Below, piece by piece: positions 33,980 through 43,744 of a stretch of DNA of 64,000 bases. Numbering within the stretch: the stretch's first letter is position 1; every line of letters starts with the position of its first letter. The stretch comes from Glutamicibacter arilaitensis Re117 (GTDB lineage: Bacteria > Actinomycetota > Actinomycetes > Actinomycetales > Micrococcaceae), in assembly GCF_000197735.1 (NCBI RefSeq), contig NC_014550.1, positions 3,596,001 through 3,660,000 of the forward strand. The letters run 5' to 3'. A program made the position numbers and the translations under genes. The notes below the pieces were generated by a model. That model searched no databases. It was not told where the DNA came from and was given only the letters and a program-made list of their open reading frames with translations.

Positions 33980-34033
33980 CTGATGCCAAGCTAAACAGCA
34001 GTTACAGCTAAGTGGAACCACAGCCTGCCGACA

Positions 34034-34107
34034 TAGAGTTGTAAGTACCTCATGAAGGTGCGAGTGATGACATGAGAAACCCCGATGCTTCGGCATCGGG
34101 GTTTCTT
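34034..34107 (+). ncRNA. Candidate small RNA, repeat copy A
   Basis: Promoter-like TAGAGT (34034-34039) is followed, after two bases, by TAAGTACCTCATGAAGG, then GCGAGTGATGA, and an intrinsic terminator (stem 34077-34088/34093-34104, AAACCCCGATGC, loop TTCG, then CTTT). Two other copies with the same order and spacing lie at 35746 and 43641, all on the plus strand in intergenic gaps. The stem sequences of copy 3 differ while pairing is kept. I do not recognise the family. Expected transcript about 60-65 nt. Confidence 0.55.
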
Positions 34108-34308
34108 TCGTCTGAAGTTGTTTTCAAAATTTGCTGCACGCACCAGGAAAGGAATTCCACCAGCAAGCTTCGTTGGGCTGCCGGGGTCCAGGTTCCCTTG
34201 TTCAGCTCCGGACGTTGGGTAGACAACCGGTCCGGCCTCCCCGTGAATCAAGAACGCTTCGATCGTTTACCGCTCTAGCAACTCGGCTGAGCAGTGAAGC
34301 GTGTGGCT

Positions 34309-34839
34309 TTAGTCAGCGAAGGATGGTGGCCAGCAAATTTCGAATCGTTCCTTGATCAGTTCCCCACCGGGCTTCGTCGTTTCTTCGGGAGTCCAATCAA
34401 TACCAATTGATTTCTGGGTTCGACGCCAGAACTTGTCGTGTTCACGACGCCAGTGCTCCAGTGACTGATCGCCCTCGCCCTCGGCCACGGCGAAGTCCGC
34501 ATCAACGTCAAAGAAGGAAGATCGTTCCACGGAAAGCACGCGGAAGATCATTCGGGGCTGACCTTTTCCATCGCAGACGATGCAGTGGTCGCCAACCTGC
34601 GGGACACGCTCGTTATAGAAGGCATAGTCACTGGCTAAAGACGAGGTGGCACGCTTGGTTCCGTGGAGCATCTCATGCAACAGTTCATCGGCAAGCGCAG
34701 GGTTATCACCGAAGGACTCTGCAACATGGAACGGCTCCTGGTCCGCTGCAATGCCCGCGCTGGCTATATACTCCGCCCACATCTCTTGCGAGGCTTCAGC
34801 GTTAACCGGCGGCAATTCTGCAACGGAGTTTTCAGTCAT
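34309..34839 (-). CDS. ASCH domain protein, copy 2
   Basis: A 176-aa paralogue of the protein at 6199-6729, same length and collinear throughout, sharing HGTKRATSSLASDY, HCIVCDG, RVLSVERSSFF and FWRRTQKSIGIDW. The copies differ mostly in the N-terminal third (residues 17-45). RNA- or nucleoside-related role as for copy 1, not proven. Its 3' end faces the candidate small RNA and the racemase gene. Confidence 0.8.
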   Translation of the reverse strand: MTENSVAELPPVNAEASQEMWAEYIASAGIAADQEPFHVAESFGDNPALADELLHEMLHGTKRATSSLASDYAFYNERVPQVGDHCIVCDGKGQPRMIFRVLSVERSSFFDVDADFAVAEGEGDQSLEHWRREHDKFWRRTQKSIGIDWTPEETTKPGGELIKERFEICWPPSFAD

Positions 34840-34882
34840 GGCTTGATCCTAGCCGGATATTCTTGTCCGCAACCACCAATTC

Positions 34883-35194
34883 CTAATCCAGGAAGTGCCG
34901 AACTGCTGCAGTTCCTCGCATCTGCCCAAAAGTAGTCCGCGCTTCGGATCGCGAAGAAACCGGTGCCGGGGTTTTCTCATCGCCATCCACGGGTTCTGGA
35001 GCCAGTTCTTCCCTGCGCGCATGAGTATTGGTTGAAACAGTCCGTCGTCGCCAGTGAACATAGGTCTTGATGCCGACTATCAGGACGACGGCCAAAACGA
35101 TCGCCATGATAACGACAGATACCTGCACAACTTCGCCGATCCCGAGCTTGCTGACGTCCTTGGTGAAGATGGATGCTGCAGAAATCAGATTCAT
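34883..35194 (-). CDS. Small one-helix membrane protein, copy 2
   Basis: A 103-aa paralogue of the protein at 25165-25479: FTKDVSKLGIGEVVQVSVV, one membrane helix (about 20-45), then GIKTYVHWRRR and a variable polar tail. ATG 35194 has GGGACCTGAA in front. A (TTC)7 run on the plus strand, (GAA)7 in gene sense, lies at 35229-35249, 35-55 bases upstream, where promoter elements would be. Function unknown. Confidence 0.7.
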   Translation of the reverse strand: MNLISAASIFTKDVSKLGIGEVVQVSVVIMAIVLAVVLIVGIKTYVHWRRRTVSTNTHARREELAPEPVDGDEKTPAPVSSRSEARTTFGQMRGTAAVRHFLD

Positions 35195-35745
35195 TTCAGG
35201 TCCCGCATTCGACTTGTTGCCCGGTCAGTTCTTCTTCTTCTTCTTCTTCCTGCCAGTCTATGAAGCCGATGCGCTGGATAAAGGAAATTGAGCGAATCGA
35301 TACGAGTTTGTTACCCGACTCCCAGAATTCTGCAGGCGAGGATGCAGGAACTTGATCGGACGCCGACCTGCCGTTTATATCTCGCTTTGGCCCGGTTCCA
35401 GTTATCACCTATCCGGCCATCGCAAGACGTACGAAGCTTTGCCCATTCAGGGCCCAGGATACAACCCCGAGCATCTTTGGGAGAGCACTTGTTCTCGAAG
35501 ATCCGCGGGCTTTCGAACATTCCAACAGAAATTTCTGCGGTGACGAATTGCCAGGTCCAACTGTTCTCGAACCACTACCCAGAGCATCGCACCTTGGGGA
35601 AAGTCCACCCGTGTACCCAAAATACGAGCTTCGGTGCGCCACCTGCATCGGAATCAAAACCAGCAAGCGAAGGCGGATTGGCTGGATTATTCACTTACCA
35701 AGCCAAATAGCAGTTCGATCCCAGTGCGCTCACAGTGAAGGGTTC
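35195..35745. other. Intergenic stretch without a supported gene (551 nt)
   Basis: Contains the (TTC)7 microsatellite at 35229-35249. Short open frames exist on both strands but none has a plausible start, ribosome-binding site or recognisable sequence. Nothing else seen up to the small RNA candidate at 35746. Confidence 0.5.
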
Positions 35746-35823
35746 TAGAGTTATAAGTACCTCATGAAGGCGCGAGTGATGACAAAGAAAACCCCGATGC
35801 TTCGGTATCGGGGTTTTCTTATT
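35746..35823 (+). ncRNA. Candidate small RNA, repeat copy B
   Basis: TAGAGT (35746-35751), two bases, TAAGTACCTCATGAAGG, then GCGAGTGATGA, then a terminator with stem AAGAAAACCCCGATGC (35785-35800/35805-35820), loop TTCG and a T-rich end. Nearly identical to copy A from the box to the loop. It is transcribed against the flanking minus-strand genes, so it needs its own promoter. Confidence 0.55.
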
Positions 35824-35897
35824 TCTCCGGCACTACTGACAGGTCTGTGCCTTTAACGCATGCTGGTGTTACGCAGAGCGTGAAGCCTTACTCTGGG

Positions 35898-36584
35898 CTA
35901 AACGATCGCTTCCACGATCGGCATTCCACCGTCGTAGAAGTTCACCGTTGCCCGGCGAGCTGCGTTGTTGGCCAGCACGTGCGTGATGACCTCGGCGACA
36001 TTTTCGCGCGAGGTATTCGGTGCCTCGCCCTGGGCTGGCTCCCCACTGAGGTTGCCTTCCTGATCAGCCAAGACCACCCGCTTGCTGGCCGGCTGCTGGG
36101 TCAGGACGCCTGGGCCGAGAATGGTGTAGTCCAGCTCGGTCTCGCGCAAGAAGGCATCCGCGTCATGCTTGGCCTTGGCATAGGTGTAGAAGGAATCCTG
36201 CGGATCCAGAGTATCCACATCTACCAGCGCGCGGCTGTAGGAAACCATTACATAGCGCTTGACTCCGGCCTGCTGCGCGGCTTTCATCGAGCGCACGGCA
36301 CCCTCGAAGTCCACTGAGCGGGTGCGCTGCTCATTGCCCCCGCCGGCACCGGCTGAGAAGACCACGGCGCTGGCTCCCTTGAAGGCATCTGCCAACTGGT
36401 CAATATCCGAACTTTCAATATCCAGCACTACCGGATTAGCTCCGGCAGCTTCCACTTCTGCGGCGTGCTCGGCATTGCGGATCATTGAGTCCACCGCATA
36501 ACCCCGCTCGACAAGCTTTGGGGCGGCCAGCAAGGCTACCTTGCCGTGACCTCCAATAAGGACTACTCGATTTTCTTCAGCCAC
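35898..36584 (-). CDS. NAD(P)-binding SDR/NmrA-like protein
   Basis: A 228-aa Rossmann-fold protein: VVLIGGHGKVALLAAPKL at the N-terminus (GGxGxxA dinucleotide motif), DIESSDIDQLADAF, a GASAVVFSAGAGG strand, YVMVSYSRA, YAKAKHDADAFLRE (YxxxK-type) and DYTILGPGVL. It resembles atypical SDRs of the YwnB/HIM1 type, which act as oxidoreductases or redox sensors. GTG 36584, preceded by AAGGAGGCCCAA, is the start; the frame runs 22 codons further without support. It stands alone. Confidence 0.85.
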   Translation of the reverse strand: MAEENRVVLIGGHGKVALLAAPKLVERGYAVDSMIRNAEHAAEVEAAGANPVVLDIESSDIDQLADAFKGASAVVFSAGAGGGNEQRTRSVDFEGAVRSMKAAQQAGVKRYVMVSYSRALVDVDTLDPQDSFYTYAKAKHDADAFLRETELDYTILGPGVLTQQPASKRVVLADQEGNLSGEPAQGEAPNTSRENVAEVITHVLANNAARRATVNFYDGGMPIVEAIV

Positions 36585-36760
36585 TTGGGCCTCCTTCTGA
36601 TCGGTACTCGTATCTCTAACAACAGCGCTGCCTACTGCACTATTCCTCATAGCTCGGCAATCAGCACGAGTCTGGGTGCTCCCTCAATGCCGGTTAACTT
36701 TTCCATCGATGAGCGTACGCTCGGGTGCAAAGCAATCGCACCCGATGACAGGACCGGCTC

Positions 36761-36982
36761 ATGACGCAGAAAACCCTGAACTTGGAACTAAGCAACGACC
36801 AGTTCGCTGATCTCACAAACGCCCTGGAAGACCATCGAGAGTACTTCAAGAAACGTGCCAGCGAAGCCCAGCTGGGCTTCGGACTTGACACCGGCTATTG
36901 GCAGTCCCGCGCAGCCGAAGTCCAGGAGCTGCTGCAGCTGGTGCAGGGCACTGCCAAGCAAAAGCAGCAATCCTCAGAATAG
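36761..36982 (+). CDS. Hypothetical small protein before DUF488 gene
   Basis: A 73-aa soluble, mostly helical, charged protein (NLELSNDQFADLTNALEDH, QSRAAEVQELLQLVQG). I do not recognise a family. AGGACCGGCTC precedes the ATG. The DUF488 gene starts 9 bases after its stop, so the two are co-transcribed and probably act together. Confidence 0.65.
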   Translation: MTQKTLNLELSNDQFADLTNALEDHREYFKKRASEAQLGFGLDTGYWQSRAAEVQELLQLVQGTAKQKQQSSE

Positions 36983-36991
36983 GGATCACTG

Positions 36992-37519
36992 ATGGCAGAG
37001 ATCTTCACCGTTGGCCACTCCGATCGCACGATTGGCGAATTCATCAGCTTACTGACGCAGCAGGGCATCGAGCATGTCTTGGATGTACGCAAACTTGCCG
37101 GATCCAGCAAGTATCCGCATTTCAATGCGGACACCCTGGCCCAGTCGCTGGCGCAATCAGGCATCGGATATTCCCACGCCCCTAAGTTGAGCGGCCGGCG
37201 GCCGGTGAGCAAGGAGGTGGATTTCGAGGTCAATGCGTGGTGGACCAACCGCAGCTTCCACAATTACGCAGACTACGCGTTGAGCCCGGAATTCCTCGCC
37301 GCCCTTGACCAGCTCATCGAGCTCTCCGCCCAAGAACGCACGGCCATCATGTGCGCCGAGGCCGTGTGGTGGCGTTGCCACCGGCGGATCATCGCCGATC
37401 ATCTCATTGCTCGCGGCCAGAACGTCCTGCATCTAATAGACGCCCATGAACCGAAACCCGCACAGCTCAGCGATGGCGCACAGCTAGGTGAACAAGTGAC
37501 CTATCCGCGCAAGCCATAG
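36992..37519 (+). CDS. DUF488 family protein
   Basis: A 175-aa cytosolic protein with the full DUF488 pattern: IFTVGHSDRTIGEFI at the start, VLDVRKLAGSSKYPHFNADTL, NYADYALSPEF, and the conserved IMCAEAVWWRCHRRIIAD (Cys-Ala-Glu ... Cys-His-Arg). The Cys pair and Arg suggest a catalytic or nucleotide-related role, but no function is established for the family. It follows the small hypothetical gene in an operon. Confidence 0.88.
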   Translation: MAEIFTVGHSDRTIGEFISLLTQQGIEHVLDVRKLAGSSKYPHFNADTLAQSLAQSGIGYSHAPKLSGRRPVSKEVDFEVNAWWTNRSFHNYADYALSPEFLAALDQLIELSAQERTAIMCAEAVWWRCHRRIIADHLIARGQNVLHLIDAHEPKPAQLSDGAQLGEQVTYPRKP

Positions 37520-37717
37520 CCTTCTTTTAGGTCCGCTCCTTTTATGACGGCCATTTCTGGCACTTTTGCATGCCGCAGCCAAATCAATTAGCGAAGACAT
37601 CTGGGCGTTATTTGCTCCGAAAATCCCCCAGTCAGATGGGGTAACACTCACCAGGAAGAAATTACATAGCGATACTCTCATTCAAAACCGCTAATTTGGT
37701 GACCTAGCTAACACAAC

Positions 37718-37736
37718 TCTGGCTTAGCCTAATTCA
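37718..37736. promoter_or_regulatory. IdeR/DtxR-type iron box 1
   Basis: TCTGGCTTAGCCTAATTCA matches the core of the iron-box consensus TTAGGTTAGSCTAACCTAA (GCTTAGCCTAA), 77 bases before the siderophore-binding protein gene. It predicts repression when iron is plentiful. Confidence 0.65.
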
Positions 37737-37739
37737 CTC

Positions 37740-37758
37740 AGATAAGGCTAAGCTAATA
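37740..37758. promoter_or_regulatory. IdeR/DtxR-type iron box 2
   Basis: AGATAAGGCTAAGCTAATA; on the other strand TATTAGCTTAGCCTTATCT, a good fit to the iron-box pattern. It lies 22 bases from box 1 and 54 bases before the gene, so two repressor dimers pairs could bind side by side. Confidence 0.7.
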
Positions 37759-37812
37759 ATCAGATCACTCAATAGCGCAACCAATAAAGGTTGCAGTTCG
37801 AAGAAGGAACAC

Positions 37813-38799
37813 ATGTCCTCCATGAAGCTTCGCGCCGCAGCTCTGCTGAGCATCGCCGCACTCTCCCTGACCGCTTGCGGTTCCGCAACCGACACCGTCT
37901 CGGAGGCCAAGGCCGGCGACAGCAAGACTGTCACCATCACCGACAACGAAGGCGAGAAGAAGATCGAGGTTCCCGCGAAGTCTGTCGTAGCCACCGACAA
38001 CCGCACCTTCGAAACCCTGGATGCATGGGGAGTAAAGCTGACCGCTGGCGCTGTCACCCTGATGCCGGACACCATCTCCTACACCAAGGATGAAAAGATC
38101 CTGGACCTGGGCAGCCACAAGGAACCAAACCTGGAATCGGTCGTTACCGTTGACCCGGACCTGATCATCAACGGCCAGCGCTACACCCAGCACGCCGCCA
38201 AGTTCAAGGAACTGGCTCCCGAAGCCACCATCGTTTCCCTGGACCCGCGCGAAGGCGAGCCATTCAACACCGAACTCGAACGCCAGGTCACCACCCTGGG
38301 CGAAATCTTCGGCAAGCAGGCCGAAGCCAAGAAGCTCGTTGAGGACTTCGAAGCCGCTGAAAAGCGCGTCACTGATGCCTACGACAAGGACCAGACCGTC
38401 ATGGGCCTGATCGCCTCGGGCGGCGAGCTGGGCTACTCCGCTCCAACCACCGGCCGCACCGTTGGCCCGATGTTCGACTTCCTGGGCCTGACCCCGGCAC
38501 TTGAGCTTGAAGAGTCCTCCACCGACCACGAAGGCGACGATGTTTCGGTCGAGGCCATCGCCAAGTCGAACCCGGACTGGATCATCGTCATGGACCGCGA
38601 CGCAGCAGTTGCAGCCGATGGCGCCGAGTACCAGCCAGCCAAGGAACTTCTGGAGAACTCCGAAGCCCTGCAGAACGTCACTGCCGCCAAGGAATCCCAG
38701 GTCGTAGTGATGCCAGCTGACACCTACACCAACGAGAGCATCCAGACCTACACCGAATTCCTCAACGATTTCGCTGACGCTCTGGAAGCTGCCAAGTAA
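37813..38799 (+). CDS. Siderophore ABC transporter, substrate-binding lipoprotein
   Basis: A 328-aa lipoprotein with signal helix and lipobox LTAC (Cys22). The mature part is a Fe-siderophore (class III) binding protein: TITDNEGEKKIEVPAKSVVATDNRTFETLDAWGV, VDPDLIINGQRY, and SNPDWIIVMDRDAA. It resembles the YclQ/FatB/CeuE group that takes catechol-type siderophores, and the gene order (binding protein, two permeases, ATPase) is that of yclNOPQ-like systems. Two iron boxes precede it and an internal hairpin follows, which should raise its level over the permeases. Confidence 0.92.
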   Translation: MSSMKLRAAALLSIAALSLTACGSATDTVSEAKAGDSKTVTITDNEGEKKIEVPAKSVVATDNRTFETLDAWGVKLTAGAVTLMPDTISYTKDEKILDLGSHKEPNLESVVTVDPDLIINGQRYTQHAAKFKELAPEATIVSLDPREGEPFNTELERQVTTLGEIFGKQAEAKKLVEDFEAAEKRVTDAYDKDQTVMGLIASGGELGYSAPTTGRTVGPMFDFLGLTPALELEESSTDHEGDDVSVEAIAKSNPDWIIVMDRDAAVAADGAEYQPAKELLENSEALQNVTAAKESQVVVMPADTYTNESIQTYTEFLNDFADALEAAK

Positions 38800-38819
38800 G
38801 CGTCTTGGACCCCTGGCCC

Positions 38820-38854
38820 CTAGTGGCGAAGCCGGATTCCGGCTTCGCCACTAG
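38820..38854 (+). terminator. Hairpin between binding-protein and permease genes
   Basis: Perfect 16-bp stem CTAGTGGCGAAGCCGG and complement with a 3-base loop, followed by AGCTATTTT. Likely a partial terminator or 3'-end stabiliser that makes the binding protein more abundant than the membrane parts. Confidence 0.75.
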
Positions 38855-38890
38855 AGCTATTTTCCCACCACATATTTCCACGGCGGCATT

Positions 38891-39871
38891 ATGACAAGCA
38901 TGACCTCCTCGGCCAGAACCAAGAGCAAGGTTCTCACGGGCAAACTCGCATTGGGCATCCTCGGGGTGCTGGTGCTGCTGGCGTTCTCCCTGTTCACCGG
39001 CGTCTACGACATCTTCGGCAAGGACGACGGCGCCATGATGTTCGCCGTCACCCGCATTCCGCGCACCATTGCGCTGGTGCTGGCCGGAGCGGCCATGGCC
39101 ATGAGCGGATTGGTGATGCAGCTGCTGACCCAGAACCGCTTCGTGGAGCCGACCACCACCGGCACCACCGAATGGGCGGGCCTGGGCCTGCTGGCCATGC
39201 TGGTCTTCTTCCCCACCGCCACCCTGCTGGCCAAGATGAGCGTAGCGATTGTCTTTGCCTTCATCGGCACCATGATCTTCTTCCTGTTCTTGCAGCGCAT
39301 TTCGCTCAAGGCCTCGCTGACCGTGCCGATCGTGGGCATCATGCTCGGTTCCGTGGTCGGCGCCTTCTCCACCTTCTTCGCGCTGTCCACCGACAAGCTG
39401 CAGTCCATGGGCATCTGGCTGGCCGGCTCCTTCACCTCGGTGATCCGCGGGCAGTACGAGGTGCTGTGGATCGTGGCCATCGTGGCCGTAGCCATCTACA
39501 TCGTCGCCGACCGCTTCACCGTGGCCGGGCTGGGCGAGGAAATCGCCACCAACGTCGGGTTGAACTACCGCCAGGTGATGCTGCTGGGCACCGCGCTGAT
39601 CGCGGTCGCTACCGGCGTGGTCACCGTGGTCATCGGCAACCTGCCGTTCCTCGGCCTGATCGTGCCGAATATCGTCTCGATGGTCCGCGGCGACGACCTG
39701 CGCAGCAACCTGCCGTGGGTCTGCCTGCTGGGCATCGCGATCACCACGGTCTGCGACCTGATCGGCCGCACCATCATCATGCCGTTCGAAATCCCGGTCT
39801 CGCTGATCCTGGGCGTGCTTGGCGCAATCGTCTTCATCTTCCTGCTACTGAGGCAGCGTAAAATTGGCTAA
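38891..39871 (+). CDS. Siderophore ABC transporter permease 1 (FecCD family)
   Basis: A 326-aa protein with eight to nine helices. Family marks: RIPRTIALVLAGAAMAMSGLVMQLLTQNRFVEPTTTGTTEWAGLG (the FecCD conserved block, here split: RIPRTIALVLAG and MQLLTQN) and, near the end, NLPFLGLIVPNIVSM. It forms one half of the membrane channel with the next gene product. Its end overlaps the next start by 8 bases. YclN-like by order and sequence feel. Confidence 0.92.
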   Translation: MTSMTSSARTKSKVLTGKLALGILGVLVLLAFSLFTGVYDIFGKDDGAMMFAVTRIPRTIALVLAGAAMAMSGLVMQLLTQNRFVEPTTTGTTEWAGLGLLAMLVFFPTATLLAKMSVAIVFAFIGTMIFFLFLQRISLKASLTVPIVGIMLGSVVGAFSTFFALSTDKLQSMGIWLAGSFTSVIRGQYEVLWIVAIVAVAIYIVADRFTVAGLGEEIATNVGLNYRQVMLLGTALIAVATGVVTVVIGNLPFLGLIVPNIVSMVRGDDLRSNLPWVCLLGIAITTVCDLIGRTIIMPFEIPVSLILGVLGAIVFIFLLLRQRKIG

Positions 39872-40910
39872 TCTCATGACTCATCCCGCTTTGGGCACCC
39901 ACCACTCAGGCCGTTCGGCAGGACCGCTTCCCACCAAGCAGGTCCGCAAGCGCTACTGGATCACCCTGTCCATCATGATCGGGCTGGCCCTGTTCTTCGG
40001 CATCGGCCTGCTGGCTTGGGACAATCCCATGCCGTTCGGCTCCGATGGCTTCTGGATCATCGCCAAGCTGCGCGCCAGCAACATCCTGACCATGGTCATC
40101 GTGGCCGCCTGCCAGTCCATCGCCACGGTCGCCTTCCAGACGGTCACCAACAACCGCATCATCACACCCTCGATCATGGGCTTCGAAGCCCTGTACCGCG
40201 TGGTGCAGACCGGTGCGATCTTCGTACTGGGCGTCGCCGGAGTGACCTTCTTTACCGGGGTCAGCCAGTTCGTGCTGCAGGTGCTCATCATGGTCGGCTT
40301 GTCCGTGGCGCTCTACGGCTGGCTGCTCTCGGGCCGCCTGGGTAACATCCAGATCATGCTGCTGGTGGGCATCATCATCGGCACCGGGCTGGGTTCCATC
40401 GCCACGTTCATGCAGCGCCTGCTGACCCCGAGCGAATTCGACGTGCTCACCGCACGCCTGTTCGGCTCCATGTCCAACGCCGACATGAGCTACATGCCGG
40501 TGGCCATCCCGCTGGTGCTGATCGCCGGCGGCTACCTGGTGCTGTCTTCCAAGAAGATGAACATCCTCGCCCTGGGCAAGGAAACCACCATCAACCTGGG
40601 GATCAACCACCGCCGCGAAGTCATGAAGTCCCTGTTCTTCATCTCCATCCTCATGGCTGTCACCACCGCGCTGGTCGGCCCGCTGACCTTCCTCGGCTTC
40701 CTCGTGGCCACCTTGGCCTACCAGCTGGCCGACACCTACGACCACCGCTACATCTACCCGATGTCCTTCCTGGTCGGGTTCGTGGTCCTGGCCGGCGCCT
40801 ACTTCATCATGAAGAACATCTTCTACGCCGATGGCGTGGTGGGCATCATCATCGAAGCCGTCGGCGGCATTACATTCTTGATCTTCATCCTGCGAAAGGG
40901 CCGGCTGTGA
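39864..40910 (+). CDS. Siderophore ABC transporter permease 2 (FecCD family)
   Basis: A 348-aa protein with a 30-residue polar N-terminus and about nine helices; marks include ACQSIATVAFQTVTNNRIITPSIMGFEALY (conserved FecCD segment), GKETTINLGINHR (ATPase contact region) and GPLTFLGFLVATLAYQL. Second half of the membrane channel, YclO-like. It overlaps both neighbours by a few bases, so the four genes form one operon. Confidence 0.92.
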   Translation: MANLMTHPALGTHHSGRSAGPLPTKQVRKRYWITLSIMIGLALFFGIGLLAWDNPMPFGSDGFWIIAKLRASNILTMVIVAACQSIATVAFQTVTNNRIITPSIMGFEALYRVVQTGAIFVLGVAGVTFFTGVSQFVLQVLIMVGLSVALYGWLLSGRLGNIQIMLLVGIIIGTGLGSIATFMQRLLTPSEFDVLTARLFGSMSNADMSYMPVAIPLVLIAGGYLVLSSKKMNILALGKETTINLGINHRREVMKSLFFISILMAVTTALVGPLTFLGFLVATLAYQLADTYDHRYIYPMSFLVGFVVLAGAYFIMKNIFYADGVVGIIIEAVGGITFLIFILRKGRL

Positions 40911-41662
40911 TTACCCTCAAATCCGTCAGCAAGAAGTACAGCGACACGGTCTCCATCGGCCCGGTTACCTTGGAAATCCCCACCGGCGGCATCACCGCGC
41001 TGGTGGGACCCAACGGCGCCGGCAAGTCCACCATGCTCACCATGGTCGGCCGCCTGCTGGGCATCGACCAGGGCTCCATCGAGGTCGCCGGCTACGACGT
41101 GTCCAAGACCAGCTCGAAGGACCTGGCCAAGATCGTCTCGATCCTGCGCCAGGAGAACCACTTCGTCACCCGCCTGACCGTGCGCCAGCTGGTGGGCTTC
41201 GGCCGCTACCCTCACTCCAAGGGCCGGCTGAACCAGGCCGATGAAGAGATCATCTCGCGTTCCATCGACTTCCTAGACCTGGGCGAGCTGGAAGGCCGCT
41301 ACCTCGATGAGCTCTCCGGCGGCCAGCGCCAGCGTGCCTACGTGGCCATGGTCCTGGCCCAGGATACCGATACGGTACTGCTCGACGAGCCGCTGAACAA
41401 TCTGGACATGAAACACTCGGTGGTGATGATGCAGCACCTGCAACGCGCCGCCCGCGAGCTGAACCGCACCATCGTGATCGTGCTGCACGACATCAATTTC
41501 GCCGGACACTACGCCGATTACATCTGCGCCATGAAAAAGGGCAAGGTCGTCGAGTTCGGCACCCCTGAAGAAATCATGTGCGACGAGGTGTTGACCAAGG
41601 TCTTCGAAACCCCGGTAAATGTCATCCCGGGCCCCAATGGCCCGCTGGCGGTGTACTACTAA
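40907..41662 (+). CDS. Siderophore ABC transporter ATPase
   Basis: A 251-aa ABC ATPase: Walker A GPNGAGKST (34-42), Q-loop near RQENHF, signature LSGGQRQRAYVAM, Walker B VLLDEPLNNLD and H-loop VLHDINFA. Length is normal for FepC/YclP-type subunits. GTG at 40907 overlaps the permease stop. It powers uptake of the iron-siderophore. A hairpin terminator follows. Confidence 0.95.
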   Translation: MITLKSVSKKYSDTVSIGPVTLEIPTGGITALVGPNGAGKSTMLTMVGRLLGIDQGSIEVAGYDVSKTSSKDLAKIVSILRQENHFVTRLTVRQLVGFGRYPHSKGRLNQADEEIISRSIDFLDLGELEGRYLDELSGGQRQRAYVAMVLAQDTDTVLLDEPLNNLDMKHSVVMMQHLQRAARELNRTIVIVLHDINFAGHYADYICAMKKGKVVEFGTPEEIMCDEVLTKVFETPVNVIPGPNGPLAVYY

Positions 41663-41682
41663 GCAACGCCATGAACACCAAT

Positions 41683-41724
41683 AGTTGAGCTCCGTGAACG
41701 ACAACTAGTTCATGGGGCTCAACT
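41683..41724. terminator. Terminator of the siderophore operon
   Basis: Imperfect stem AGTTGAGCTCCGTGAAC with GTTCATGGGGCTCAACT (two mismatches), loop of 8 bases, 20 bases after the ATPase stop. Confidence 0.65.
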
Positions 41725-41759
41725 GCATCCATTCACCCGCACTGCGGGCCCGGCTTTTG

Positions 41760-41950
41760 CTATTGCTTGGACTTCCCCAGCGCATTGATCGCGTCAACCA
41801 TCGTCGCGCCCGGATGCTGGCGGCAGTATTTCTTCACATCCCGGGGTGTGATCCCCTGTGCATCGACGGTGATTTCCTAGGGCTTCGGACTCCCAGTCCA
41901 GCCCCAAAGCATCAAGGCCCAGCTGCCTACGAGCAATGCCATGTCAGCAT
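41760..41950 (-). pseudogene. Decayed small gene of unknown type
   Basis: On the minus strand the frame ends with EITVDAQGITPRDVKKYCRQ, then HPGATMVDAINALGKSKQ and TAG at 41760-41762, which reads like a real protein end. A TAG directly precedes it, while the neighbouring frame holds RRQLGLDALGLDWESEAL. One base lost at about 41876 would join them. No start codon is seen. The family is unknown to me. The rest of the gap 41663-42109 shows nothing. Confidence 0.35.
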
Positions 41951-42109
41951 GGCTGGGGATAGCTCAGTTCAGGTCATCGAGCAGCAAGTCCTTAACCATG
42001 TTCGCTGCGCCATCAGCCCGTTGATCAGCTGGAGGGAACTAGTAGTTAATCTGGTCATTGAAGACCTGCACGACGAAGCCATCGATTCCATCACGCTTCG
42101 GGGCGAAAA

Positions 42110-43345
42110 CTAGCTACGGCTTCCTTGCACCCCTGTTCCATCGCTACGCGGGCTTTTTCCACGTAGTACTGGCGAGCAAGCAAGCACCACAAGTCCTGCA
42201 ATGGGGAACACCATCAGGGCCATGCGCAACCCGAAGTTCTCGGCAAGGTATCCGACCAGTGGCGGCGAGAACAAGAAGCCCAATCGCATGAGCCAGGAGA
42301 CGATGCTCAGCCCAGTTCCCGGGGACAGGCCCAGCAGCTTGTCGGCCTGGTCCATCACCGCCGGGACCAGAGTTGCCGAGCCGAATCCAGCCGCGGCAAA
42401 TCCCAGCAGCGTGCCTGGAACCGTGGGGAAGAACAACGCCAGACCCATACCGATTGCTATCAGCGCTCCCCCGAACTGGGCCATGCCGCGCTGGCCAAAG
42501 CGGTTGACCATGCCATCGCCCAGAATTCGGCCAATGAACTGGGCCCCGACCAAAGCGATGAACCCGCTGGCCGCCAGCGCCGCTGGCGCTCCCAGCTCGC
42601 CAAGATACAGCGTGGACCACGAATTCCCGGCGTCTTCAACCATCACGCCGGCCACGGAGATCAAGACCAGGGCGCTCATCATCAGCAGCATCCGTCCGCG
42701 GGATCCTGCTGGGGCCGCGGCCCGTGCGGTTCCGGGTGCAGGTGGCGCAACAGGTTCTATGACCGCCAGTTCGGCGGATCGAGGCAGGCAGAATTTCAGG
42801 GCAGTCAGTGCCACCGCGGCAAAAAGCACCATCGATATGCCCAAATGCACTGGCAATGCCAGGTTCATCTGGATCGCTCCGGCGGCCATCAAACCGCCGA
42901 TTACCGCTCCGACAGACCACAATGCGTGGAAGGAATTCAGTAACGAACGCCCATAGCGTCGTTGCACCACCAGCCCGTGCGCGTTCTGCCCGACATCCGT
43001 AATCGAATCCATGGCGCCGCCCAGGGCAAAAGCCAGCACCACCCAAACCACCCCCGGGGCGCTACCGGCGGCCAGCAATGCCGCACCGGTAGCCATGGTG
43101 CCGAAGACGGCAACCAGGGCGGAACCAAATCGGCGCACCAGCGCACCTGCAGCCAACCCTGCAAGGATTGCCCCAATTGGCCACGCGGTGACCAGCAAGC
43201 CGTAGCCGGCGGTGTCCAATTCCAGTTCCCGCTTCAGCTCGGGAAGGCGCGGCGCCATATTGGCAAATAGTGCTCCGTTAGTGAGGAACAGGGCCGCGAC
43301 TGCAGCGCGGGCGCGGGAGTTGACGCTGGATTCGCTGGCTGCCAT
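42110..43345 (-). CDS. MFS transporter
   Basis: A 411-aa inner-membrane protein with 12 helices. It has FLTNGALFANMAPRLPELKREL (loop before helix 2), the motif-A-like GALVRRFGSALVA, a middle loop rich in Ala/Pro, and SWLMRLGFLFSPPLVGYLAE. It resembles the YbjJ-type MFS group; substrate unknown. ATG 43345 (GAAAGGCCCC before it) is preferred over 43381, which has no ribosome-binding site. It stands alone. Confidence 0.85.
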   Translation of the reverse strand: MAASESSVNSRARAAVAALFLTNGALFANMAPRLPELKRELELDTAGYGLLVTAWPIGAILAGLAAGALVRRFGSALVAVFGTMATGAALLAAGSAPGVVWVVLAFALGGAMDSITDVGQNAHGLVVQRRYGRSLLNSFHALWSVGAVIGGLMAAGAIQMNLALPVHLGISMVLFAAVALTALKFCLPRSAELAVIEPVAPPAPGTARAAAPAGSRGRMLLMMSALVLISVAGVMVEDAGNSWSTLYLGELGAPAALAASGFIALVGAQFIGRILGDGMVNRFGQRGMAQFGGALIAIGMGLALFFPTVPGTLLGFAAAGFGSATLVPAVMDQADKLLGLSPGTGLSIVSWLMRLGFLFSPPLVGYLAENFGLRMALMVFPIAGLVVLACSPVLRGKSPRSDGTGVQGSRS

Positions 43346-43744
43346 GGGGCCTTTCACTGCACGCGCATGCGGATTCTTCATGGGGAATGCTTAACTAGCA
43401 TCCAGCGTCGAGAGTACCAGTGCACCTGCTGGCAAATCTCGAAACCGTGCCGAAAGCCCGGGAATAGGTATTTTGCGTCTGACCAGCTGCATCAGGAAAG
43501 CGGCGAGCTGGCCATCCGCCGGCATACGCGTTTCGGCTGCAACTTTGGAAACCCAGCTGGTCCAGCAGCTGGATCGCCCCGTTCGCCAGATGCCCTGCTG
43601 CCGCGGAGCCTGCGCTCAGCGTAGCCATAGGCGTTTTCAATATCGTAGTAACAACCTCAGTGAGGGTGCGAGTGATGATCGCAGAAGTTCCCGCCGGTTC
43701 CACCGGCGGGAACTTCTGGTTAATTCGCAACCGGAAAATCGGAG
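43346..43744. other. Intergenic stretch holding only the small RNA candidate (399 nt)
   Basis: No protein gene is supported. 43641-43717 holds repeat copy C. The bases 43390-43640 show nothing I recognise. Confidence 0.5.
43641..43720 (+). ncRNA. Candidate small RNA, repeat copy C
   Basis: TATCGT (43641-43646), two bases, TAACAACCTCAGTGAGG, then GTGCGAGTGATGA, then a terminator with stem AGAAGTTCCCGCCGG (43683-43697/43703-43717). Order and spacing equal those of copies A and B, but the terminator stem has a different sequence. This makes the box and core, not the terminator, the conserved parts. Confidence 0.55.

Follow-up and report, generated by a model that had tools for sequence, protein, structure and literature searches.

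A probable family of small RNAs in the Micrococcaceae with a conserved seed and a candidate target in a MerR-gene leader of Glutamicibacter

A 64,000-nucleotide (nt) stretch of the Glutamicibacter arilaitensis Re117 genome (NC_014550.1, positions 3,596,001 to 3,660,000), called the window below, carries three copies of a short element composed of promoter, core and 3′ hairpin. The question that the locus raises is whether this element is a gene for an RNA, a protein-binding site or a repeat. A first-pass annotation of the letters had proposed a new small RNA (sRNA) family, and our analysis supports that proposal. From sequence comparison and prediction, we consider it probable that the elements constitute a new family of trans-acting sRNAs, which would carry a pairing seed, be driven by a response regulator and, in Glutamicibacter, pair with the leader of a MerR gene. 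Two features go beyond the first-pass annotation: four CNCAG repeats with a period of 11 base pairs (bp) in the promoter, and a conserved complement of the core in the MerR leader.

The three copies, A (34034), B (35746) and C (43641), were found on the plus strand exactly where they had been placed. Common to them are a −10-like box, two bases, TAAG or TAAC, a 5′ mini-hairpin (CCTC...AGG; ACCU...AGGU), the 11-mer GCGAGTGATGA and a 3′ hairpin with a perfect stem. In copy C, the loop is longer by one base. A and B share 90% identity over 71 nt; C has a 3′ hairpin of different sequence. When GCGAGTGATGA alone was searched in the window with two mismatches, 17 occurrences were found against 23 expected, which is not significant, whereas the whole element is beyond chance. 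All copies had been thought to lie between genes of opposite direction. This is correct for A, which has convergent neighbours, but B and C each lie between two minus-strand genes. Similarly, the count of three applies to the window, and the genome total is seven: A, B, C, three copies clustered in 0.8 kb (C3:3703557-3704345), and a weaker one at C3:2973249 detected by the second model described below. The exact 11-mer occurs 12 times in this genome, namely in the six strong elements, in one MerR-gene leader and five times under an open frame. An alpha/beta hydrolase gene adjoins the seventh copy (L026, 1475-1620), the same type of neighbour as in L074 and L088 of other genera, and the loop of this copy carries ACCUCCUU, which is complementary to a Shine-Dalgarno sequence.

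The first-pass annotation had suggested a covariance-model search of the Micrococcaceae. A core model was built from the six strong copies, which score 52-65 bits (high by construction; independent genomes are the better check), and the next match in the same genome scores 24 bits. With this model, 4-8 copies were detected in each of the 18 Glutamicibacter genomes, and a match was obtained in 181 of 245 Micrococcaceae genomes. A second model, made from 53 diverse sequences and including 26 nt of the promoter, detected the element at an E value of 0.001 or better in 220 of the 245 genomes and in 31 of the 32 genera. Among 20 listed of the 25 genomes missed, at least 14 belong to genus g6 and at least 4 to genus g3. 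Searches of 396 genomes of the order and 296 genomes of the class gave 32 and 3 hits, respectively, all of them in Micrococcaceae; at least three genomes of the family were missed in the order. No element was found in a genome of another family among those sampled, in searches whose family-trained models and stricter filters could miss weak distant relatives. Since the hits cover 31 of the 32 genera and none lies outside the family, the element characterises the Micrococcaceae and occurs in almost every genus of the family. The exact 25-mer core was also detected in named genomes, in 31 stretches labelled Glutamicibacter, Paeniglutamicibacter, Arthrobacter and Tersicoccus.

The copy number reaches nine per genome. 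Possession of many copies was considered as a speciality of Glutamicibacter and rejected, because genera g11, g22 and g30 reach 8 or 9. Several of the genera with one or two copies hold the element at one syntenic place. In nine of 19 annotated loci (L070, L071, L072, L075, L079, L081, L082, L085 and L086), it lies between proC-like and xylose-isomerase-like genes, and in several of these nine, ppx-like and topA genes are located farther out. Profile searches identified proC and topA in L071, a P5C-reductase domain in L082 and a TIM-barrel domain in L079, L081 and L086; the remaining neighbours at these loci were identified by reading.

For the analysis of conservation, 100 elements were scanned and nine were removed: seven, including L026, were out of register or did not fit the pattern, and two had a shifted box. 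Of the remaining 91, 53 were kept as the diverse set. T1, A2 and T6 of the box are kept at 97-99% in the 91 elements, and the run GGTGCGAGTGATGA is near-invariant; these figures lean upward because the scan pattern itself required these letters of box and core. The sequence 3′ of GCGAGTGATGA varies freely among elements. In the 5′ mini-hairpin, 99.6% of the cells were paired in the 53 sequences. The transcripts are predicted to start near 34046 (A), 35758 (B) and 43653 (C). In the predicted fold of A, the first two letters of GCGAGTGATGA are taken into the last pairs of the 5′ hairpin. The 3′ hairpins of A and B were called by the terminator scan. The coordinates are summarized in Table 1. In genus g4, the 13-mer CATCACTCGCACC occurs twice, 15 bp apart, at G050:C1:31886-31913, 2837631-2837658 and 2841961-2841988, which suggests doubled-seed elements, and a similar doubling was observed in L123 of genus g15.

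Table 1. Positions of the observed and predicted features of copies A, B and C in the window
Feature	Positions	Strand	Basis
Copy A, four 11-bp-spaced CNCAG-like repeats (33986, 33997, 34008, 34019), putative response-regulator site	33986..34023	+	each matches 3 or 4 of 4 letters
Copy A, −10-like box TAGAGT	34034..34039	+	read in sequence
Copy A, 5′ mini-hairpin ACCU/AGGU; predicted transcript start near 34046	34047..34059	+	predicted fold; predicted start
Copy A, seed GCGAGTGATGA	34060..34070	+	near-invariant in 91 elements (figure leans upward)
Copy A, terminator hairpin, UUCG loop	34075..34106	+	fold, stem comparison, terminator scan
Copy B, four 11-bp-spaced repeats (35698, 35709, 35720, 35731)	35698..35735	+	repeat-register counts
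Copy B, −10-like box TAGAGT	35746..35751	+	read in sequence
Copy B, seed GCGAGTGATGA	35772..35782	+	sequence search
Copy B, terminator hairpin	35785..35820	+	fold, stem comparison, terminator scan
Copy C, four 11-bp-spaced repeats (43593, 43604, 43615, 43626)	43593..43630	+	repeat-register counts
Copy C, −10-like box TATCGT	43641..43646	+	read in sequence
Copy C, seed GCGAGTGATGA; GCGA pairs with the following UCGC in the predicted fold	43668..43678	+	sequence search, fold
Copy C, 17-bp hairpin, unrelated sequence, T-poor tail	43682..43718	+	fold; no call by terminator scan

Upstream of the box, the information content of the aligned elements peaks at −48, −37, −26 and −15. Each peak reads C-N-C-A-G, so that four direct repeats with an 11-bp period are formed. 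This stretch lay outside the part that the scan used to collect the elements. In the 53 diverse elements, at least 3 of the 4 letters matched at 154 of 212 positions in this register (64 of 92 in Glutamicibacter and 90 of 120 in other genera), whereas in any other phase no more than 25 of 212 did. Among the three window copies, none of the 12 repeats matches fewer than 3 of the 4 letters. A consensus −35 sequence was looked for at these three copies and was not found. Tandem 11-bp repeats without a −35 sequence are the type of site bound by OmpR/PhoB-type response regulators. Because the repeats lie upstream of a −10 box that has no −35 partner, a site of this type is proposed, and the promoter of the element is probably controlled by such a regulator.

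The complementarity between the seed and the leader of a MerR gene is conserved in Glutamicibacter, in line with the earlier suggestion that the core serves as a pairing seed. UCAUCACUCGC, the complement of the core, is present in the 5′ leader of this gene in 18 of 18 Glutamicibacter genomes, which belong to one genus and are not independent. Ten of the sites are exact, five have an A to G change, two a T to C change at one end and one a C to T change at the other end. With A to G or C to T, G-U pairing to the seed is preserved, which is not the case with T to C. Counted from its first base, the site lies 30-36 nt behind the predicted start of the leader and 74-82 nt ahead of the start codon. 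Identity averages 0.96 on the site versus about 0.65 on either side, and the two best-conserved of the 87 11-nt windows of the leader lie on it. With the leader, the seed GGUGCGAGUGAUGA forms 13-14 contiguous pairs (−23.8 to −27.5 kcal/mol). In a shuffle test of 27 leaders, from which the weak hits L177-L179 were left out, none of 300 shuffles was as good in each of the 18 Glutamicibacter leaders. In the nine outgroup leaders, taken from other families, the site was absent and 25 to 226 of the 300 shuffles were as good. A strongly conserved block, CTTGAAGGTCTTTGACC...GCCGTACCGT, was observed upstream of the MerR gene in L150-L167, within the promoter of the leader itself; it is possibly a regulator site.

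The gene behind this leader encodes a MerR regulator (PF13411) and is preceded by a bifunctional-nuclease gene and a further MerR gene. We take this gene order to be that of Rv1828-Rv1829-Rv1830. Rv1830 of Mycobacterium tuberculosis is ResR/McdR, which is described as controlling ribosomal gene expression and proliferation (PMC10336103). The candidate target thus appears to be ResR/McdR-like, the orthology being judged from synteny and domain only.

Based on these results, the following mechanism is proposed. Each element would be a gene for a trans-acting sRNA of about 60-75 nt. A response regulator of the OmpR/PhoB type would bind the four repeats and drive the promoter, which has a −10 box and no −35 sequence. 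Transcription would start directly 3′ of the box, and the RNA would fold into the 5′ mini-hairpin, the seed and a 3′ hairpin at which transcription ends. The seed, (G)GUGCGAGUGAUGA, is predicted to be mostly unpaired in A and B. In Glutamicibacter, it would pair over 13-14 bp with UCAUCACUCGC(ACC/AUC) in the ResR/McdR-like leader, and this pairing would alter the synthesis of the regulator. Through its multiple copies, one seed may be supplied in several doses or placed under several controls. Many other genera combine this 5′ domain with C-rich loops that would be able to pair with ribosome-binding sites, as in 6C RNA. As for the direction of control, the predictions for many leaders pair the site with the region around the start codon, and blocking the site raised the openness of the start region by more than 0.05 in 12 of the 18. 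Because of the predicted pairing, activation through freeing of the start codon is considered slightly more likely than repression or duplex cleavage, which are nearly as likely.

Several observations weigh against the proposed sRNA and its target, in addition to the upward lean of the conservation figures and the dependence among the 18 genomes. Other windows of the leader influence start-codon access as well, the site having a median rank fraction of 0.31-0.39 among all windows. The hairpin of copy C had been regarded as a terminator with an unrelated stem; the unrelated stem was confirmed, but no T-run follows it and the terminator scan made no call. In the predicted fold of C, moreover, the seed letters are partly paired (GCGA with UCGC). 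The 5′ hairpin showed no double-sided covariation in the 53 sequences, and the one-sided changes observed are no proof of structure. With 40 leaders from the 31 other genera, hand-picked from 129 genomes with at least one per genus, the site was found with 10 of 11 letters in g12 and partially in g11, g18 and g4; most leaders showed nothing. In three of these 40 (g11, g12 and g30), at most 2 of 200 shuffles were as good, the site of g30 being another sequence, and g18, g4 and one g3 genome gave 3, 4 and 5 of 200, respectively. The leader pairing would accordingly be a feature of Glutamicibacter and some relatives. Since the seed is kept in genera without the leader site, it must serve other targets there. 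A family-wide target was sought with the 13-mer CATCACTCGCACC in 64 genomes of the family, which gave 149 places in 49 genomes. No shared further target was detected in the 20 places that were read: 11 were further elements and nine were not, most of these nine lying under open frames by our own reading.

The main rival to the sRNA is a DNA-binding protein that recognises the 11-mer in both settings. GCGAGTGATGA and its inverted copy in the MerR leader would then be one transcription-factor site just downstream of the start, acting as DNA. Both sequences are located about 15-50 nt downstream of predicted start sites, and promoter-proximal repeated sites are common in general. We regard this explanation as unlikely, given that pairing in the 5′ hairpin is also retained in the element, together with a 3′ hairpin whose sequence is free to vary. 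Furthermore, of the three kinds of change seen in the leader site, two preserve RNA pairing, the orientation in the element is opposite to that in the leader, and each of the 18 leaders offers 13-14 nt of complementarity. A dispersed or transposon-like repeat without RNA function would account for several copies per genome, for the near identity of A and B, and for an IS481-type transposase gene (L013:6571-7530, minus strand) that follows copy F at about 2.2 kb and also speaks against an sRNA gene. It is nevertheless very improbable: the stems differ between copies while promoter and core are kept, the element occupies a single syntenic place in several genera with one or two copies, it is conserved across the whole family, and it is itself the only long repeat shared around A and B. 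Equally remote is a very short leader peptide or a cis-acting attenuator. Copy A reads ATGAAGGTGCGAGTGATGACATGA; however, the start codon is lost in 14 of the 53 diverse elements and the frames scatter from 1 to at least 39 codons, for which reason the peptide was rejected. As for attenuation, each of the three copies is followed by a gene on the opposite strand, so that there is no downstream target to attenuate.

The elements could also be diverged members of the 6C sRNA family (RF01066), multiple copies of which are described in some mycobacteria (PMC9569102). CCCC hairpin loops, the hallmark of 6C, were detected in 36 of 40 elements from other genera versus 2 of 51 from Glutamicibacter, with none in A, B or C. 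In a second, less selected set (52 elements of the same pattern from further loci), the counts were 27 of 38 and 0 of 14, so that both sets together give 63 of 78 versus 2 of 65. Outside Glutamicibacter, the loop is often UUCCCCC, and some elements have such loops in two hairpins. Loss of the C-rich loops was considered as a speciality of Glutamicibacter and rejected, because they are also missing from 4 of 40 and 11 of 38 elements in other genera, including g12 and g15. Against membership in 6C, RF01066 gave no match at the gathering threshold in the window or in 29 relatives' loci, and a search of 38 genomes matched none of the 18 Glutamicibacter genomes. The core is absent from four 6C record sequences that were compared, and nearly all Glutamicibacter copies are without the loops. 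An outgroup 6C gene (L093) lies between ssd and a HAD hydrolase gene, whereas A, B, C and the element loci, nine of them at the proC-like and xylose-isomerase-like genes, have other neighbourhoods. L092 resembles L093 by reading only, and its ssd-like frame has no Pfam match. Because RF01066 does not match and the genomic place differs, the element in the genera with C-rich loops is called 6C-like and not a member of 6C; membership is a rather improbable alternative.

The claim of a new family agrees with the Rfam searches in general, in which neither the window nor the 29 relatives' loci matched any family at the gathering score. At permissive thresholds, the best match of copy A was a PyrR site at an E value of 0.05 (26 bits versus a threshold of 54). 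In open-licence papers, no title or abstract opening retrieved for the motif, for Arthrobacter or Glutamicibacter sRNAs, or for 6C in the family describes the element. In L094 (G022) of genus g6, a genus without the element, an RNA with several C-rich-loop hairpins was observed behind a TAGAGT box at about 1430-1620. It scores 46.3 bits with RF01066, just below the gathering score of 47, and may be a replacement of the element in this genus. A further observation concerns the region between copies B and C (37813-41662), which by reading holds a siderophore-type ABC system consisting of a binding protein, two permeases and an ATPase.

The trans-acting sRNA remains our preferred explanation. A wider scenario, which we put forward tentatively and hold to be possible but doubtful, is that a family-specific sRNA switched its way of finding targets. 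Widely in the family, it would combine the seed with C-rich loops that pair with ribosome sites. Glutamicibacter and some other genera would have lost the loops and have 5-9 copies, and the seed would have become tied to the ResR/McdR-like leader. The circuit would thereby run from a response regulator through sibling sRNAs to a regulator of growth and translation, possibly with release of the start codon.

To our knowledge, both a defined seed and a conserved target are known for few sRNAs of Actinobacteria. The promoter signature of the element suggests the type of its regulator, and the M. tuberculosis relative of the predicted target is the ribosomal gene and proliferation regulator described above (PMC10336103). 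Nearly a whole bacterial family, comprising soil and cheese bacteria, carries this candidate seed-bearing sRNA element, in up to nine copies per genome.

LhrC of Listeria and alpha-r15 of Rhizobiales are multicopy sibling sRNAs with a shared seed. Like them, the element would stand for several sister sRNA genes that share a conserved unpaired stretch and each end in a terminator. They belong to other phyla and have other seeds. In the promoter, the closest parallels are PhoP of M. tuberculosis, which is described as binding TCACAGC direct repeats with a 4-bp spacer and tri- or tetra-repeats more tightly (PMC4832192), and MtrA, for which 9-nt repeats with a 2-nt spacer are described (PMC6265350). 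The 11-bp period is the same, and TCACAGC of PhoP resembles CNCAG of the element; the regulator site of the Micrococcaceae element is putative. With 6C RNA, the element shares its probable nature as a short intergenic sRNA, the one or two C-rich-loop hairpins often present outside Glutamicibacter, and the occurrence of several copies in some genomes (PMC9569102, PMC4046766). It differs from the four 6C records in its invariant 5′ hairpin followed by GCGAGUGAUGA, and from 6C as a family in its genomic place, its 11-bp repeat promoter, the lack of an Rfam match and, in Glutamicibacter, the near absence of C-rich loops.

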